Notes under the pieces: generated by a model
Database searches by the model: none
The model's input: only the letters and a program-made list of their open reading frames with translations
Told to the model about the DNA's origin: nothing
Position numbers and translations under genes: made by a program
Shown here: piece after piece, positions 3,985-60,076 of the stretch
Position numbering within the stretch: the first letter of the stretch is position 1
How the letters are laid out: each line of letters opens with the position of its first letter
NCBI GenBank assembly: GCA_016190985.1
Contig: JACPPI010000018.1
Location: forward strand, 62,001-126,000
Length of the DNA: 64,000 nt
Direction: 5' to 3'
Source of the DNA: Opitutia bacterium
Lineage (GTDB): Bacteria; Verrucomicrobiota; Verrucomicrobiia; Opitutales; Opitutaceae

Positions 3985-5121
3985 GTGATTAAAATCCTTC
4001 CCGCTGACCCCAAGGCCGCCTACCTCGCCGCGCAGGCCGACATCGACGCCGCCATCAAACGCGTGATGCTGAGCGGGCACTACGTCCTCGGGCCCGAGTT
4101 GGACGCCTTCGAGAAGGAATTCTCCGCCTGGCTCGGCACCGCCGGCGCGGTCGGCGTGGCCAACGGCACCGACGCCATCGAGCTGGCGCTGCTCGCCGCC
4201 GGCATTGGGCCCGGCGACAAGGTTGTCACCGTCGCCAACACCGTGACGGCGACCGTCTCGGCCATCGTCGCCACCGGCGCCAAGCCCGTGTTCGTGGACA
4301 TCGAGCCCGGCACGATGCTCATGGATGTGACCGCGCTCGAGACCATGCTCGCCACCCTGCGCGACCCGAAGATCAAGGCCGTCGTGCCGGTGCACCTCTA
4401 CGGCCAGGCGGTGGACATGCCGCGCCTCATGGAAATCACCGGACGACACAATCTCTTCGTCATGGAGGATTGCGCGCAAGCCCACGGCTCCCTGGTCGGC
4501 GGGAAAATGGCCGGCACCTGGGGTTCGCTTGCGTCGTTCAGTTTTTATCCGACGAAAAACATCGGGGCCTTTGGCGACGCCGGTGCCGTCACGGGCCGCG
4601 ACACCGCGCTGCTGGAGAAAGTGCGGCTGCTGCGCCAATACGGCTGGCGGAAACGCTACGTGAGCGACCACCACGGCCGCAACAGCCGGCTCGACGAGTT
4701 GCAGGCCGCGATCCTCCGGGTGCAGCTGGCCCGGATCGAGGCCGGCAACCGCCGCCGCGACGAGATCGCCCGGCACTATCTCACGGCGCTCAAGGACACC
4801 CCGCTCAAGCTCCCAGCCCTCGCCGAGGGCCGCACGCACACCTGGCATCAATTCGTGGTCCGCACCACGCGGCGCGACGAGTTGCAGACGCACCTGGCGA
4901 GGAAGGACATCGTCTGCGGCGTGCTTTACCCGATGCCGATCCACCGCCAGCCGGCGTATCACGACGCCTCGCTCTCCCTGCCCCACACCGAGCAAGCCTG
5001 CGCCGAGGTGCTGTCCCTGCCGCTGCACCCCGGCCTAAAGGACGAGGACGTTGCCCGGGTGGTCCGGGAGATAAGTGCCTTGCTCACGGCGGCCAATGGT
5101 CGGACAGTTCCCGGCAGTTGA
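3985..5121 (+). CDS. DegT/DnrJ/EryC1/StrS-type sugar aminotransferase
   Basis: PLP-dependent aminotransferase that converts keto-sugar nucleotides to amino sugars. The 378 residues match the family. The NGTDAIELAL segment, the EDCAQAHGS motif and the PLP-binding lysine Lys191 in the FYPTKNIGAFGDAG stretch are all present, as is the substrate-side motif HGRNSRLDELQAAIL. The start is GTG at 3985, right after a repeat. It probably works with the epimerase upstream. A diverged copy of its 3' end reappears at 5657-5755 beyond a small HTH gene. Confidence 0.92.
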   Translation: MIKILPADPKAAYLAAQADIDAAIKRVMLSGHYVLGPELDAFEKEFSAWLGTAGAVGVANGTDAIELALLAAGIGPGDKVVTVANTVTATVSAIVATGAKPVFVDIEPGTMLMDVTALETMLATLRDPKIKAVVPVHLYGQAVDMPRLMEITGRHNLFVMEDCAQAHGSLVGGKMAGTWGSLASFSFYPTKNIGAFGDAGAVTGRDTALLEKVRLLRQYGWRKRYVSDHHGRNSRLDELQAAILRVQLARIEAGNRRRDEIARHYLTALKDTPLKLPALAEGRTHTWHQFVVRTTRRDELQTHLARKDIVCGVLYPMPIHRQPAYHDASLSLPHTEQACAEVLSLPLHPGLKDEDVARVVREISALLTAANGRTVPGS

Positions 5122-5607: not shown

Positions 5608-5656
5608 TTTCTGGGGTGTAGTCGGAGAAAGCGGAGGGGAGCGCTGGGGGATTTCC

Positions 5657-5755
5657 GGCAGCCGGCGTATCACGACGCCTCGTTGTCGCTGCCGCAGACC
5701 GAGCAGGCCTGCGCCGAAGTCCTTGCGCTGCCGCTGCACCCCGGCCTGTCCGGCG
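5657..5755 (+). pseudogene. Duplicated 3' fragment of the DegT aminotransferase gene
   Basis: The translation QPAYHDASLSLP... matches the aminotransferase from its QPAYHDASLSLP segment (near base 4946) to LPLHPGL, after which similarity is lost in a Gly-rich run. At the DNA level the two copies differ at scattered positions, so this is a diverged copy and not a recent exact duplication. It has no start and lacks the catalytic domain. Confidence 0.8.
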
Positions 5756-20484: not shown

Positions 20485-21492
20485 ATGGCCTATCGCTTCA
20501 GTTTCAAGTCCTACCGTCTGCCGCTGCGGGCCCCGCTGCGCACCGCGCACGGCGTCTGGGCCGAGCGCGAGGGCATCCTCGTGCGGCTGGAGGAGGAGAC
20601 AGGAAGGGTGGGTTTCGGGGAAATTGCGCCGCTGCCGTGGTTCGGAACGGAAACCATGGTCGAGGCGGAGGAGATTTGCCGGAAGTTTGGCGCCACCGTG
20701 GACGCGGGGACGCTCGAGGCGGTGCCGGCGCGGTTCGGTTGCGTGCGATTCGCGCTGGCCGGGGCCCGATCCGGAACTTGTCATCTAATAGATGACAAAG
20801 AGTCGGCGATGCGCCTGCCGGTCACGGCGTTGCTTCCTGTCGGACGGACGGCGCTGGTGACTCTGCCCGCAAAACTCGAGGCGGGCTTTCTCTCCTTCAA
20901 GTGGAAGGTCGGCGTCGGCGCCGTGGACGACGAGCTTGGCATCCTCGACGACCTGCTGGCCGCGTTGCCGTCGTATGCGCAGTTGCGCCTCGATGCCAAC
21001 GGCGCCTGGGACCGGCGGCAGGCGGCTCGGTGGCTCAAGCGCTGCGCCGAGCGGCCGGTGGAGTTTGTCGAGCAGCCGGTGCCGGCCGCGGACGAGGCGG
21101 CGCTGCTCGGGCTCGCGGCGGATTATCCGGTGACCCTCGCCCTCGACGAATCCGTCACCGGTCTGGCGGCGGCGCAGCGCTGGCAGGGCTTGGGCTGGTC
21201 CGGGGTGTTTGTCATCAAGCCATCGCTCGCGGGACCGCTGGAAGAAACCGCGGCGTGGATCACCACGACCAAGGCCGACGTCGTGCTCTCCAGCGCGATC
21301 GAAACAGCTCTCGGTCGCGCGGCGATCCTGCGCACGGCGCTCACGCAGCCGCTGACAAGGCGGGCCCTCGGTTTCGGGGTCGGCGAGATTTTCGGCGACC
21401 GGCGCTGGGACGGCCCCATCCTTGGGCCGGTGCTCGACCGCAGTTGGATCAGCGCGGTGAACCCGGAGGAAATATGGAACGCACTGAATTAG
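20485..21492 (+). CDS. menC: o-Succinylbenzoate synthase
   Basis: Enolase-superfamily enzyme of menaquinone synthesis that dehydrates SHCHC to o-succinylbenzoate. It has 335 residues. Catalytic lysine Lys141 is in FKWKVG (with Lys139), metal ligands are Asp170 (RLDANGAW), Glu196 (VEQP) and Asp221 (LDES), and the second lysine is Lys245 (VIKPS). A perfect 21-bp palindrome (20778-20798) lies inside the reading frame and encodes GTCHLIDDK. The stop lies within menE, so the two are translationally coupled. Confidence 0.93.
20778..20798. repeat. Palindrome inside menC, resembling the HTH-gene operator
   Basis: Arms TTGTCATCTA and TAGATGACAA flank a single A. The overall length and 17 of 21 positions agree with the TTGTAAT...ATTACAA palindromes at 5132 and 5586. 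It lies in frame within the menC coding sequence. Confidence 0.6.
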
Positions 21493-32089: not shown

Positions 32090-32104
32090 GTCACTCCACT
32101 CCGT

Positions 32105-32131
32105 GCTTGTGCGTCCGAATGTCGCACAAGC
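32105..32131. repeat. GTGCG hairpin repeat, copy 1
   Basis: Perfect nine-bp arms GCTTGTGCG and CGCACAAGC flank a 9-base loop. It is the first of four related hairpins between 32.1 and 35.7 kb. Confidence 0.75.
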
Positions 32132-32185
32132 TCCTGCCGCCTGGGAATTGGAGAGGGGGTTGAAGTGGAACTGGTGAGCCAGAAG

Positions 32186-32548
32186 TGTCGAGCTACGGCA
32201 ACACCGATCAGCCGGCACCCCGGGCTTCAGCCTTCGCCCGGTCGTTAAACTTCGGCCAGGCTTTAGCCGTCGCCAAGGCTATGGCCGACAAGAAGGCACG
32301 ACGCAGCCAGATCGCGGTGACAGTGCTCGTGCGTCGATACGACGCACGAGCTCAGGCCGCCGGGAGTGGGGGATGAGAGAAGTCAACAGATGCCAGCCAA
32401 GCTGATTTTCAGAGCGGTCCCACAGAGTCAGATCGCCGTCGCCGATCTGATCCGTCGTCCGCGCGACCCGGCTAGGATGCTCCGCCGCGCGGAGGGGTTT
32501 TCGTTTCCGATCTTCAAGCAAAGGCTGGCTTCCGTGCTCGCACTCTGA
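32186..32548 (+). pseudogene. Broken duplicate of the GT4 gene 3' end, interrupted by repeats
   Basis: SSYGNTDQ (32186 onward) matches EYGNTDQ of the GT4 protein, then similarity stops for about 230 bases. It resumes at QIAVADLIRRPRDPARMLRRA and runs to LASVLAL (stop at 32546-32548), matching the GT4 C-terminus. The gap holds an AVAKAMA-type repeat (about 32264-32289) and the hairpin at 32325-32351. A short QIAV-coding sequence appears on both sides of the gap. The rest of 32090-32566 holds no other gene. Confidence 0.8.
32325..32351. repeat. GTGCGTC hairpin repeat, copy 2
   Basis: Perfect 11-bp arms GCTCGTGCGTC and GACGCACGAGC flank GATAC. It lies inside the broken GT4 fragment. Confidence 0.8.
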
Positions 32549-33608: not shown

Positions 33609-35030
33609 ATGCCCATGAAAATCACGCGTCCGAGTTTTGAACAATTTACCCGTGGTGAAGCCAAGATCGCCATCATCGGCCTGGGCTATGTTGGCCTGCC
33701 CCTCGCGGCGGTGTTCAGCCGCAAATTCAAGGTCATTGGCTTCGACATCAATGAACGGCGGGTGAAAGAGCTCAGGGAGGGGCATGATCGCACGAGGGAG
33801 CTGAGCCGCGAGCAGCTGAAAACTGCCAGAGGACTGACGGCAGAGGACGGAGGTCAGGCTAAACGAGGCGGAAAGGAGCCTGTGCGTCCAAAAGACGCAC
33901 GAGCTCAGAGGACAGGCGGATTGGAGTTCAGCACGGACCCGAAGGTGCTGAGTCAGGCGCGGTTGATTATTGTCACAGTGCCGACGCCGATCGACAATCA
34001 TAAGAATCCCGACCTGACGCCGCTCATCAAGGCCTCGACCATGATCGGCCGGCATATCCAACCCGGCACCACTGTGGTCTATGAATCGACGGTCTATCCT
34101 GGCTGCACGGAGGAAGACTGCCTCCCGCTCATCGAAAAGGAGAGTGGATTGAAATGGAAGCAGGACTTCTTCGCCGGTTATTCGCCGGAGCGCATCAATC
34201 CCGGCGACAAGGAGCATACGGTGGATAAAATCAAGAAAGTCGTGTCGGGGGACACGGCGGACACGGCTGAAATGCTGAAACAGATCTACGGCGCCGTGAT
34301 CACGGCGGGCATCTTTGTGGCGGCAAGCATCAAGACCGCCGAGGCAGCCAAGGTCATTGAGAATACCCAGCGTGACCTGAACATCGCCCTGATGAACGAG
34401 CTCGCGCTCATCTTTGACCGCATGGGCATTCGCACGCTGGATGTGCTTGAGGCTGCCGGCACGAAGTGGAACTTCCTCCCGTTCCGCCCGGGTCTGGTCG
34501 GAGGACACTGCATCGGCGTCGATCCGTATTACCTCACATTCAAGGCAGAGAGCCTGGGCTATCATCCGCAGGTGATTCTCGCCGGCCGGCGGATCAACGA
34601 CGGCATGGGCAAGTTCATTGCTGAAAAAACCGTGAAGCTCCTCATCGCGAATGACCGCCCGGTCAAGGGCGCGAAAGTCCTGATCCTCGGCTGGACGTTC
34701 AAAGAAGACGTGCCTGACATCCGCAACACCCGCGTGATCGACATCTACCGCGAGTTGGAGAGCTACTACGTTAATGTCAGCTGCTATGATCCCCATGCAG
34801 ATGTGGCCGAGGTGAAGCACGAATACGGTATCGAGTTGCTCATGGCCGCGCCGCGCAAGGGGCCATTCGACGCGGTCATTCTTGCGGTGAAGCACCGCAG
34901 CCTGTTTGCCGCCTATCCTTTGGAGATAATCCAGTCTCTTGGCGGGTCTCGCCCGCCGGTGGTCATCGATGTGAAGGGGTTTCTGGCCAGAGGGCAGACG
35001 GGCTTCGCCTCGGCCATATGGCAGTTATGA
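33609..35030 (+). CDS. UDP-sugar 6-dehydrogenase (WbpO/TviB-type) with repeat-coded insertion
   Basis: A 473-residue NAD-dependent dehydrogenase oxidising a UDP-hexose to the uronic acid in two steps. The Rossmann motif GLGYVGLP is at residues 24-31, VTVPTPID follows, and catalytic Cys301 is in GGHCIGVDPYY. Residues ~75-103, between KTARG and LEFSTDP, look inserted: they are coded by an ACGGAGG-type repeat and a GTGCGTC hairpin (33876-33906) and are low in hydrophobic residues. It starts 1 bp after the epimerase stop. A copy of the last third lies at 35,862-36,194. Confidence 0.9.
   Translation: MPMKITRPSFEQFTRGEAKIAIIGLGYVGLPLAAVFSRKFKVIGFDINERRVKELREGHDRTRELSREQLKTARGLTAEDGGQAKRGGKEPVRPKDARAQRTGGLEFSTDPKVLSQARLIIVTVPTPIDNHKNPDLTPLIKASTMIGRHIQPGTTVVYESTVYPGCTEEDCLPLIEKESGLKWKQDFFAGYSPERINPGDKEHTVDKIKKVVSGDTADTAEMLKQIYGAVITAGIFVAASIKTAEAAKVIENTQRDLNIALMNELALIFDRMGIRTLDVLEAAGTKWNFLPFRPGLVGGHCIGVDPYYLTFKAESLGYHPQVILAGRRINDGMGKFIAEKTVKLLIANDRPVKGAKVLILGWTFKEDVPDIRNTRVIDIYRELESYYVNVSCYDPHADVAEVKHEYGIELLMAAPRKGPFDAVILAVKHRSLFAAYPLEIIQSLGGSRPPVVIDVKGFLARGQTGFASAIWQL
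33876..33906. repeat. GTGCGTC hairpin repeat, copy 3, inside the dehydrogenase gene
   Basis: Arms GTGCGTC and GACGCAC flank CAAAA, with outer GAGC and GCTC also able to pair. It is read in frame as part of PVRPKDARAQ. Confidence 0.75.
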
Positions 35031-35598: not shown

Positions 35599-35684
35599 CG
35601 ATGGATTGCTGCCGGCGCCTGAACTGCCTGGGAAAGTCCAAAAGTATTGAGTGCAACCGCAGATTCCGGTTTGAAGACCATTTT

Positions 35685-35715
35685 GAGCTTGTGCGTCCGA
35701 ATGACGCACGGGCTC
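35685..35715. repeat. GTGCGTC hairpin repeat, copy 4
   Basis: GAGCTT-GTGCGTC, loop CGAAT, then GACGCAC-GGGCTC. With two G-U pairs the stem is 13 bp. It lies just upstream of the truncated dehydrogenase fragment. Confidence 0.8.
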
Positions 35716-35810
35716 TGAGCGGCAGGGGGGTGGAAACAGCAATGAGGAGAAAAGCATTTACCGAAGTGACAACGGGATCGCTGCACCGGGGGGCCGAGCA
35801 GCAAGGAGTG

Positions 35811-48541: not shown

Positions 48542-48791
48542 CGCACGCACAGAGGACAGAGGGCGCGCCGTTGTTGCCTGCTGGCAACCCGGTGTTTGTC
48601 CCGAGAACTCCGTCCTCCGGCGGATTCACGGGCAAAGAAAGCAGTCAGAGAAAGCTGACAGCTATGAGCTGTAGGCTGTAAGCTCGGAATCGTGCTGCGG
48701 AGTTGACCCGCCTGCGTCCCGCAGTCGCGGGACTACGGCGCGGCAAGCGTGATGGGGCGTAGCTTGTGGCTGATGTGGGTGGGATGCACGG
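48542..48791. repeat. Repeat-rich gap after epsI
   Basis: No gene is seen in 48542-48826. It has an ACAGAGG unit (48549-48562), a TTGTTGCCTGCTGGCAACCC element (48571-48590 and beyond), an AGCTGA-type array (48652-48684) and a hairpin GTCCCGCAGTCGCGGGAC (48716-48733). The CGGTGT element recurs at 49731, 53531 and 59557. Confidence 0.65.
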
Positions 48792-53499: not shown

Positions 53500-53686
53500 C
53501 AGAGGAAAGACGGCGGAGGACAGTGGACGCTTGCTGTTGCTTGATCGCAATCCGGTGTGTCCGGTTGAAACCTGCTGGTTTCACGGGGTTCGTCCGCCGG
53601 CCTGTGCCGGGGCAAAAGTCCGGCAACCTGCGAGCGGCGCCGCAGTTTCAGGCAAAGAGGACGGAGACATGCAAGTATGTGGCATC
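53500..53686. repeat. Repeat-rich gap before vapB
   Basis: 53487-53720 holds no gene. It has an ACAGAGGAAAGACGGCGGAG unit (53500-53519), a CGGTGT element (53531-53570) and short hairpins (e.g. CCGGCCTGTGCCGG, 53597-53610). Confidence 0.6.
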
Positions 53687-59257: not shown

Positions 59258-60076
59258 TCAGAGTGTCCGCGTGTAGCGGGCGCCGCGCTCGTCCTCGAAG
59301 GTGAGCGAGTTGGCGGTGATGCCGACCAGTTTCAGGCCCAGGTCCGCGTCGACCTGGCTGCCGATGCGGTAGACCCGGTCGTTCATGAGCACCTTGGCGT
59401 CGGTCGCCGAGGCGCGGACCCCGGCGACCTTGATGTTGTCGATGAATTGGATCGCCCGCGGCTCGAGCTTAGGCGGTGGTGCGGCCACCGCCGGTTGAGG
59501 GTTTACAGTTGAGGGTTGAGGGACCGGAGGCTTGGTCGCCGGCGAAGCGGAGAGCACCGTTGCCACCTGCTGTGGGCCCGGTGTTTGTCCGGCAGATTCC
59601 CGTTGCGGGCCGCTGCCCGCCCGGGATTTGTCCTGACCGCCGTCAGGCAAATGCCTGGCATCTGCCGGCAAAGGTGCGCTCTTCGGGGCCTGCGCAACGG
59701 ACAGGACGAAAGTGACGGGGGCGGACCCGCCGTCGCTCTTCGAGCTAGGGCGAGGCTCTTCCTGTGGTTTCACCGCAGGCGAGGCGGGCGTGGACTGCTG
59801 CGCGGCCGGCGAAGAGGACTGGGCCACGGGGGTGGGGGTAGCATCCACGTTCTTTGCGGTCGGAGAGGAGCGGAAAGCGAAATAACCACCGACCAGGAGC
59901 AGCACGCCGACGCCGGCTCCGGCCCAGATCAGCATCGAACCAGGGGCGCCGGATTTGGCGCGGCGAGAAATGCTGGCCGCGGATTCACCGCCGACGCCGG
60001 GCATCGAGGCGAGCACCGGGGCCTCGCCGGTGCGCTGCTTCTGGGCCTTCTTGAGGGCGTCGTTGATGAGGCTCAT
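59258..60076 (-). CDS. GspB/ExeB-like protein
   Basis: A 272-residue bitopic membrane protein. The N-terminus SLINDALKKAQKQR and the single anchor MLIWAGAGVGVLLLVGGYFA lead to a Pro/Ala/Ser-rich linker and a C-terminal domain with GVRASATDAKVLMNDRVYRI, like GspB, which helps place the type II secretin. The linker contains sequence coded by dispersed repeats (bases ~59557-59680, PDGGQDKSRAG...). It follows the ExeA-like gene by 2 bp. Confidence 0.8.
   Translation of the reverse strand: MSLINDALKKAQKQRTGEAPVLASMPGVGGESAASISRRAKSGAPGSMLIWAGAGVGVLLLVGGYFAFRSSPTAKNVDATPTPVAQSSSPAAQQSTPASPAVKPQEEPRPSSKSDGGSAPVTFVLSVAQAPKSAPLPADARHLPDGGQDKSRAGSGPQRESAGQTPGPQQVATVLSASPATKPPVPQPSTVNPQPAVAAPPPKLEPRAIQFIDNIKVAGVRASATDAKVLMNDRVYRIGSQVDADLGLKLVGITANSLTFEDERGARYTRTL
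59557..59680. repeat. CGGTGT-type repeat and hairpins inside the GspB-like gene
   Basis: CCGTTGCCACCTGCTG and CCCGGTGTTTGTCCGG (+ strand) match the elements at 48571 and 49731. CCTGAC-CGCC-GTCAGG follows at 59633-59648. They are read in frame on the minus strand within the linker. Confidence 0.65.

Follow-up and report, generated by a model that had tools for sequence, protein, structure and literature searches.

The stretch of DNA analysed here, referred to as the window, spans 64,000 nucleotides of the genome of an Opitutia bacterium (G000; 2.95 Mb in 34 contigs). It carries a menC gene with a palindrome inside its coding sequence and a gene for an XRE/Cro-like HTH protein that is bordered on both sides by similar palindromes (Table 1).

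Table 1 Genes and palindromes under study, with their positions in the window
Feature	Position	Strand	Remarks
Upstream palindrome of the HTH gene, TTGTAATCTATTATATTACAA	5132..5152	.	Ends 7 bp before the ATG
HTH gene, XRE/Cro-like, 143 aa	5160..5591	+	ORF; family alignment; model and Foldseek
Downstream palindrome of the HTH gene, TTGTAATCTATTATATTACAA	5586..5606	.	Contains the TAA stop of the HTH gene
menC, o-succinylbenzoate synthase-like, 335 aa	20485..21492	+	Pfam MenC_N, MR_MLE_C
Palindrome in menC, TTGTCATCTAATAGATGACAA	20778..20798	.	Perfect, in frame

All ten arm pairs of the menC palindrome are complementary, leaving only the central A unpaired. Its codons specify residues 99–105 (CHLIDDK), between MenC_N and the barrel domain; Pfam places MenC_N at residues 9–92 and MR_MLE_C at 131–288. 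As RNA, this copy would fold into a nine-pair hairpin. An earlier note had described a perfect 21-bp palindrome within menC that agrees with the sites around the HTH gene at 17 of 21 positions. We reproduced both statements, and in the other orientation the agreement is 18 of 21. With up to three mismatches allowed, menC and the two HTH-gene sites were the only three matching places in the window, and 100 dinucleotide shuffles of the window produced no match to the family at this threshold.

We then looked for this palindrome family across the genome and the genus, using a set of one genome per species, many of them metagenome-assembled. The pattern TTGTNANNTANTANNTNACAA, with one mismatch allowed, matched G000 55 times, corresponding, after merging by context, to 53 distinct sites in the stretches analysed, while the reversed pattern, used as a control, matched nowhere in this genome. 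Exact matches were found in 19 of the 21 genomes of the genus, compared with none for the control. The earlier note had further held that such a site rarely arises by chance in coding DNA. Palindromy alone does not bear this out, as the window holds palindromes of other sequences with arms of 9 to 12 bp; it is membership in the family, with its many genomic sites and empty control, that upholds the claim.

Nearly all G000 sites share a TANTA centre and fall into discrete arm types: TTGTAATCTA with TTGTAATATA (11 sites, including the two of the window HTH gene), TTGTAACGTA with T[TC]GTCAATTA (8 sites), TTGTAACCTA on both sides (7 sites), and the menC type, with two identical, perfect copies (in menC and at C10:168929) and a few imperfect ones. 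The core measures 21 bp, and some copies reach about 49 bp. Pairing past the 21-mer is locus-specific in G000, with 5.26 of 10 outer pairs complementary versus 3.94 when flanks were re-dealt (maximum 4.58), and it weakens more than about 10 bp outside the core. G000 sites are mostly single. In G017, 20 spacings among 50 listed sites were below 200 bp, nine of them 52–54 bp; the GTTCG-type palindromes of this genome (L217–L231) often form doublets at this distance, with spacers that look dissimilar to each other. Helical phasing of the doublets was considered and set aside, the Rayleigh value falling to 0.31 (n=11) once the 52–54 class was removed. Other repeats are found in the same DNA: a dispersed hairpin repeat, GTGCGTC...GACGCAC, has four copies in the window, all within 4 kb (32096–32152, 32316–32372, 33869–33925 and 35678–35734), and a 37-nt repeat family has four copies, two of them adjacent (48565–48601, 53559–53595, 59554–59590 and 59597–59633). 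Elsewhere in G000, there is a REP-like short repeat (C26; L216:6085–6140) that is found dozens of times in relatives, on either strand.

The HTH protein of the window had no Pfam match of its own. Among 49 relatives, weak matches to YdaS (31) and HTH_3 (12) were obtained, the best at 3.9e-5 to 7.8e-5. Its AlphaFold2 model is helical and of moderate confidence (pLDDT 74), and the Foldseek results for this model were dominated by XRE/lambda-repressor-like DNA-binding domains, none reaching E ≤0.001. We saw no nuclease or recombinase domain in the protein. G000 encodes eight members of the family, and matches were found in 25 of the 57 genomes searched, among them G000 and each of the 20 other genomes of its genus. 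Scanning the GTDB genomes recovered 66 HTH loci, titled, among others, Opitutaceae, Opitutia/Opitutae, Opitutus, Lacunisphaera, Oleiharenicola, Didemnitutus and unspecified Verrucomicrobia. A phage or plasmid origin was rejected, as searches of viral contigs, of plasmids and of phages yielded no family member. Around the HTH gene of the window, a 93-bp piece of a DegT-like aminotransferase gene (4944–5036) recurs with 87% identity just past the downstream palindrome (5655–5747), so that the HTH unit sits between two copies of host sequence.

The HTH genes carry their own type of palindrome on their flanks. Among 58 whole-genome HTH loci, we counted the 55 with at least 200 bp on both sides, applying a cut-off of 6/8 arm pairs with a TANTA centre and an upstream reach of 350 bp. 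Palindromes were present upstream of 39 genes, downstream of 31 and on both flanks of 29, compared with 0/386 two-sided and 4/772 one-sided occurrences in control windows; at this cut-off, 16/55 genes lacked an upstream and 24/55 a downstream palindrome. The cut-off missed the visible flanks of one G000 HTH gene (C5:276k), one of which was added by hand to the arm-fit test described below. Block shuffling at this loose threshold gave 0.49 TANTA palindromes per 64 kb, and a lone one-sided match is therefore not proof. Many of the upstream palindromes lie less than 40 bp from the HTH ATG. Similarly, words of at least 14 nt were common to both flanks at 41 of the 66 GTDB loci, some of which belong to genomes already in the whole-genome set, versus 1/236 shifted controls. 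At one HTH gene (L101, G023), the flanks carry the palindrome AGTTTCACGTAATACGTGAAACT, which we take to resemble a parS site split by three bases, possibly by chance.

The arms also track the protein. From 122 parsed genes, 90 had palindromes, representing 70 distinct HTH cores, and the distances between arms and between proteins were correlated with a Mantel r of 0.546, a value that still includes shared ancestry and that none of 2000 permutations reached (maximum 0.237). For pairs of HTH proteins below 60 percent identity, r was 0.39. Copy number points in the same direction: GTTCGTANTACGAAC occurs 52 times in G017, 27 in G020, 10 in G000 and 8 in G011, precisely the four genomes in which an HTH gene is so flanked, and 0–4 times in the other 17. 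Finally, we compared gene-borne palindromes with the flanks of the HTH genes resident in the same genome, for the 14 of 16 palindromes that had a same-genome flank set. The mean best identity was 18.64/21, whereas permuting the genomes gave a mean of 15.43 and a maximum of 17.86 (0/2000 reaching the observed value). Poor individual fits were the menC palindrome of G015 (14/21) and the Fmt palindromes of G020 (12), G018 (16) and G004 (17).

The earlier note had proposed that the HTH protein binds the menC site. Judged from the flanks and the co-variation of arms and proteins, the palindromes do resemble cognate binding sites of this family, and this part of the proposal gains credibility. The HTH protein of the window, in contrast, has become a weaker candidate, as the TGTCATCTA arms of the menC copy fit the sites of other HTH genes better: the window HTH sites agree at 17–18 of 21 positions, the flanks of another G000 HTH gene (C5:241k) at 19/21, the best within G000, and the flank of an HTH gene from another genus (G029) at 20/21, the best overall. 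Comparing the lists by eye, we found none of the eight G000 HTH proteins to be of the type flanked by TGTCATCTA arms on both sides.

How the palindrome came to lie in menC is best seen in relatives. Our search detected menC in 49 of 57 genomes, and we aligned the 30 best loci, one being G000 itself. The aligned linker has 37 residues in G000 versus 33 in the shortest relatives, and most homologues lack the residues that the palindrome encodes; the comparison suggested by the earlier note thus did not turn up palindrome-free homologues that all encode these residues. In G015, this codon position is occupied by another palindrome, ATGTCACTTAATAGGTGACAT, with paired changes in the arms at orthologous codons. 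By eye, the linkers of G010 and G013 contain GTGG...CCAC inverted repeats, that of G012 a GTAG...CTAC repeat and that of G011 a possible decayed copy, with no clear palindrome in the remaining aligned loci. In a three-gene tree, G010, which has the other type of insert, is the sister of G000 (support 0.71), and G015 groups away from G000 at a node with support 0.02. As this small tree does not place G000 and G015 as sisters, it gives no proof that the menC copy goes back to a common ancestor, and the two palindromes may share a common descent or have arisen independently. In-frame insertion, the second possibility raised in the earlier note, is favoured by the longer linker and by the other palindromic and inverted-repeat inserts in relatives, though not as a clean 21-bp insertion, since the linker exceeds that of the shortest relatives by a net four codons.

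The same pattern recurs in other genes. We chose 15 palindrome-bearing ORFs by eye from the site table and translated them; ten were submitted to Pfam, and eight matched. In six, the palindrome falls within the Pfam match: a radical SAM protein, a formyltransferase (Fmt), a T2SSE/PilB protein, a 3-beta-HSD-type SDR, IPPT and an RNA methyltransferase. In a DEAD_2 helicase and an AMP-binding protein the palindrome precedes the domain, so that translation may begin at a later start codon. Counting menC, whose palindrome lies between domains, at least seven Pfam-supported genes thus carry in-gene palindromes. Six of the seven read the palindrome in a single stop-free frame (C[NH]...); the exception is the imperfect copy in IPPT, translated as DVTYYVTK. 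In the PilB/T2SSE gene (L027, G000:C5:224390), the palindrome TTGTAACCTAATAGGTTACAA overlies GCAACNLLGYKGR without apparent insertion, and we take GCAACNLLGYKGR to be the native CxxCxxxGYxGR motif.

The Fmt and SDR genes show how the arms change at a fixed position. Nine of the 19 species with a readable Fmt linker carry a palindrome at the same linker (G000, G004, G007, G009, G010, G012, G018, G019 and G020), with seven different cores; among the other ten, three have a linker of the same length without a palindrome and seven have other or shorter linkers. In the SDR gene, palindromes are present in 5 of 20 species, in G018 in the form of a 54-bp doublet, and the others have REP-like inserts or decayed or short loops. 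We tested covariation of the arms on nine Fmt and eight SDR rows; six Fmt rows were read later, outside the test. In Fmt, 62 of 90 arm cells were complementary, against a mean of 51.4 when right arms were re-dealt (1/5000 reached the observed value), and the signal was weaker in SDR (27/5000). Intergenic sites behave alike. We compared G000 and seven relatives over a 10.6-kb syntenic stretch that holds three sites in G000: G010 has a palindrome with other inner bases at site A; site B is common to G000 and G015, with other hairpins or nothing elsewhere; and at site C, a doublet with arms of another type begins in G015 as far from the conserved sequence before it as the site does in G000, with no palindrome in the other six relatives. 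In the tree, sister species often differ in the presence of a palindrome.

Taken together, we consider the menC palindrome to be a member of a dispersed REP/RPE-like family that is maintained or spread with the multi-copy family of XRE/Cro-like HTH genes (probability about 0.72). Tolerant linkers, such as those of menC, Fmt and SDR, are occupied in frame, and their arms change between species at the same position. From the sequences at hand, the most economical reading is that the HTH protein would act as the cognate binder, regulate its own gene from the upstream site and be accompanied by some spreading or conversion of sites. An HTH dimer would bind one palindrome, and the palindrome immediately preceding each HTH gene would serve as its autoregulatory operator. 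As the HTH protein shows no catalytic domain, copies would reach, or convert, other places through a step that uses enzymes of the host or of another element. Within genes, only copies that read in one stop-free frame at tolerant linkers would survive. For the enzyme itself, the menC copy is probably without function; its subfamily is small and no dedicated HTH gene was found for it in G000, which suggests a remnant or a site that a related paralogue recognises. Conversion rather than plain insertion is hinted at by the four codons gained on balance in menC and several Fmt genes, and by the PilB overlap. The locus-specific pairing beyond the 21-mer makes a hairpin or cruciform stage plausible, and template switching could also yield such extended pairing.

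A bolder version is a selfish or domesticated system that needs no transposase, in which HTH binding itself causes palindromes to be copied, or near matches to be converted, throughout the genome, coding sequence included. We regard this version as speculative and rather doubtful. If it were true, the arms in Fmt, SDR, menC and intergenic sites would be rewritten species by species to follow the resident HTH gene.

Alternatively, the HTH proteins could be autoregulated transcription factors, and the palindromes, including that of menC, functional operators kept by selection for binding, with arms that follow shifts in HTH specificity. The proximity of many palindromes to HTH start codons, the tracking of arms with the HTH protein and with resident HTH genes, and the palindromy retained at orthologous codons despite changing bases, as in Fmt, all fit an operator network. 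We nevertheless judge it unlikely, given the sites deep within functionally unrelated genes and between genes, the patchy presence even among sister species, and the doublets and copy numbers of up to 52 for one type, which are repeat-like rather than regulon-like. Still less probable is that symmetry is made and kept by mutation, through template switching at quasi-palindromes, with no role for the HTH protein. Such correction would account for the paired changes between G000 and G015 in menC and for outer arms that are locus-specific yet complementary in G000, but it leaves the TANTA centre, the few discrete arm types and the fit to HTH flanks unexplained; it may operate in addition to the HTH-linked process. 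That the menC palindrome is a product of chance or of the protein sequence, unrelated to the other sites, is refuted for practical purposes, for although a single perfect 21-bp palindrome per 64 kb is not very improbable, the family match absent from shuffles, the identical copy at C10:168929 and the family counts speak against chance, and the absence of the encoded residues from most homologues against a protein constraint.

The HTH-linked family resembles several known systems, without coinciding with any of them. In the excerpts of PMC3733652 that bear on this question, GTAG REPs come with a Y1 transposase (RAYT) and CGTC REPs have no known partner, and Opitutus terrae has many intragenic REPs and a GTGG variant of GTAG-20; the GTGG and GTAG inserts in the menC genes of relatives are probably REPs of this type. 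REPIN doublets are defined in an excerpt of PMC3116915. As far as these excerpts go, the family shares with REPs and REPINs its dispersed short palindromes, some of them in doublets, the association of a repeat type with a gene that it borders, the variation of arms between species and the intragenic copies. It differs from REP/RAYT in its linked gene, the product of which is an XRE/Cro-like DNA-binding protein lacking an HUH/Y1 domain, in its TANTA centre and in the lack of a common GTAG or CGTC end tag in the listed arms, GTAG occurring within one arm type only, TTGTAGTC. A Y1 transposase was also tried as a partner and discarded: of seven Y1 matches, the four loci examined, all from G000, had no TANTA palindrome. 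RPEs, about 150 bp in the excerpted text of PMC10969869, are likewise palindromic repeats read in frame at tolerated places of many unrelated genes; in contrast to elements of about 100–150 bp, the family has a 21-bp core, and it comes with a specificity-matched HTH gene family. Like XRE/Cro-type autoregulators (YdaS-like PF15943, C-proteins, HigA-like antitoxins), it combines an HTH fold with palindromes near the gene's own start; unlike them, it has weak sequence matches and sites that are dispersed over the genome and present on both gene flanks. The terms Opitut-, Verrucomicrob-, RAYT and helix-turn are absent from the main text of PMC12306157, and within the sampled portion of the open-licence PMC literature we found no description of a palindrome family with such a linked HTH gene.

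A dedicated, specificity-matched family of DNA-binding proteins makes the spreading of repeats directly testable. The 70 distinct HTH cores and their sites would constitute a readable series of protein–DNA specificities. The Fmt, SDR and menC linkers, in turn, form a natural series in which the place is fixed and the arms change, and they illustrate how elements at the DNA level shape the linkers of proteins.
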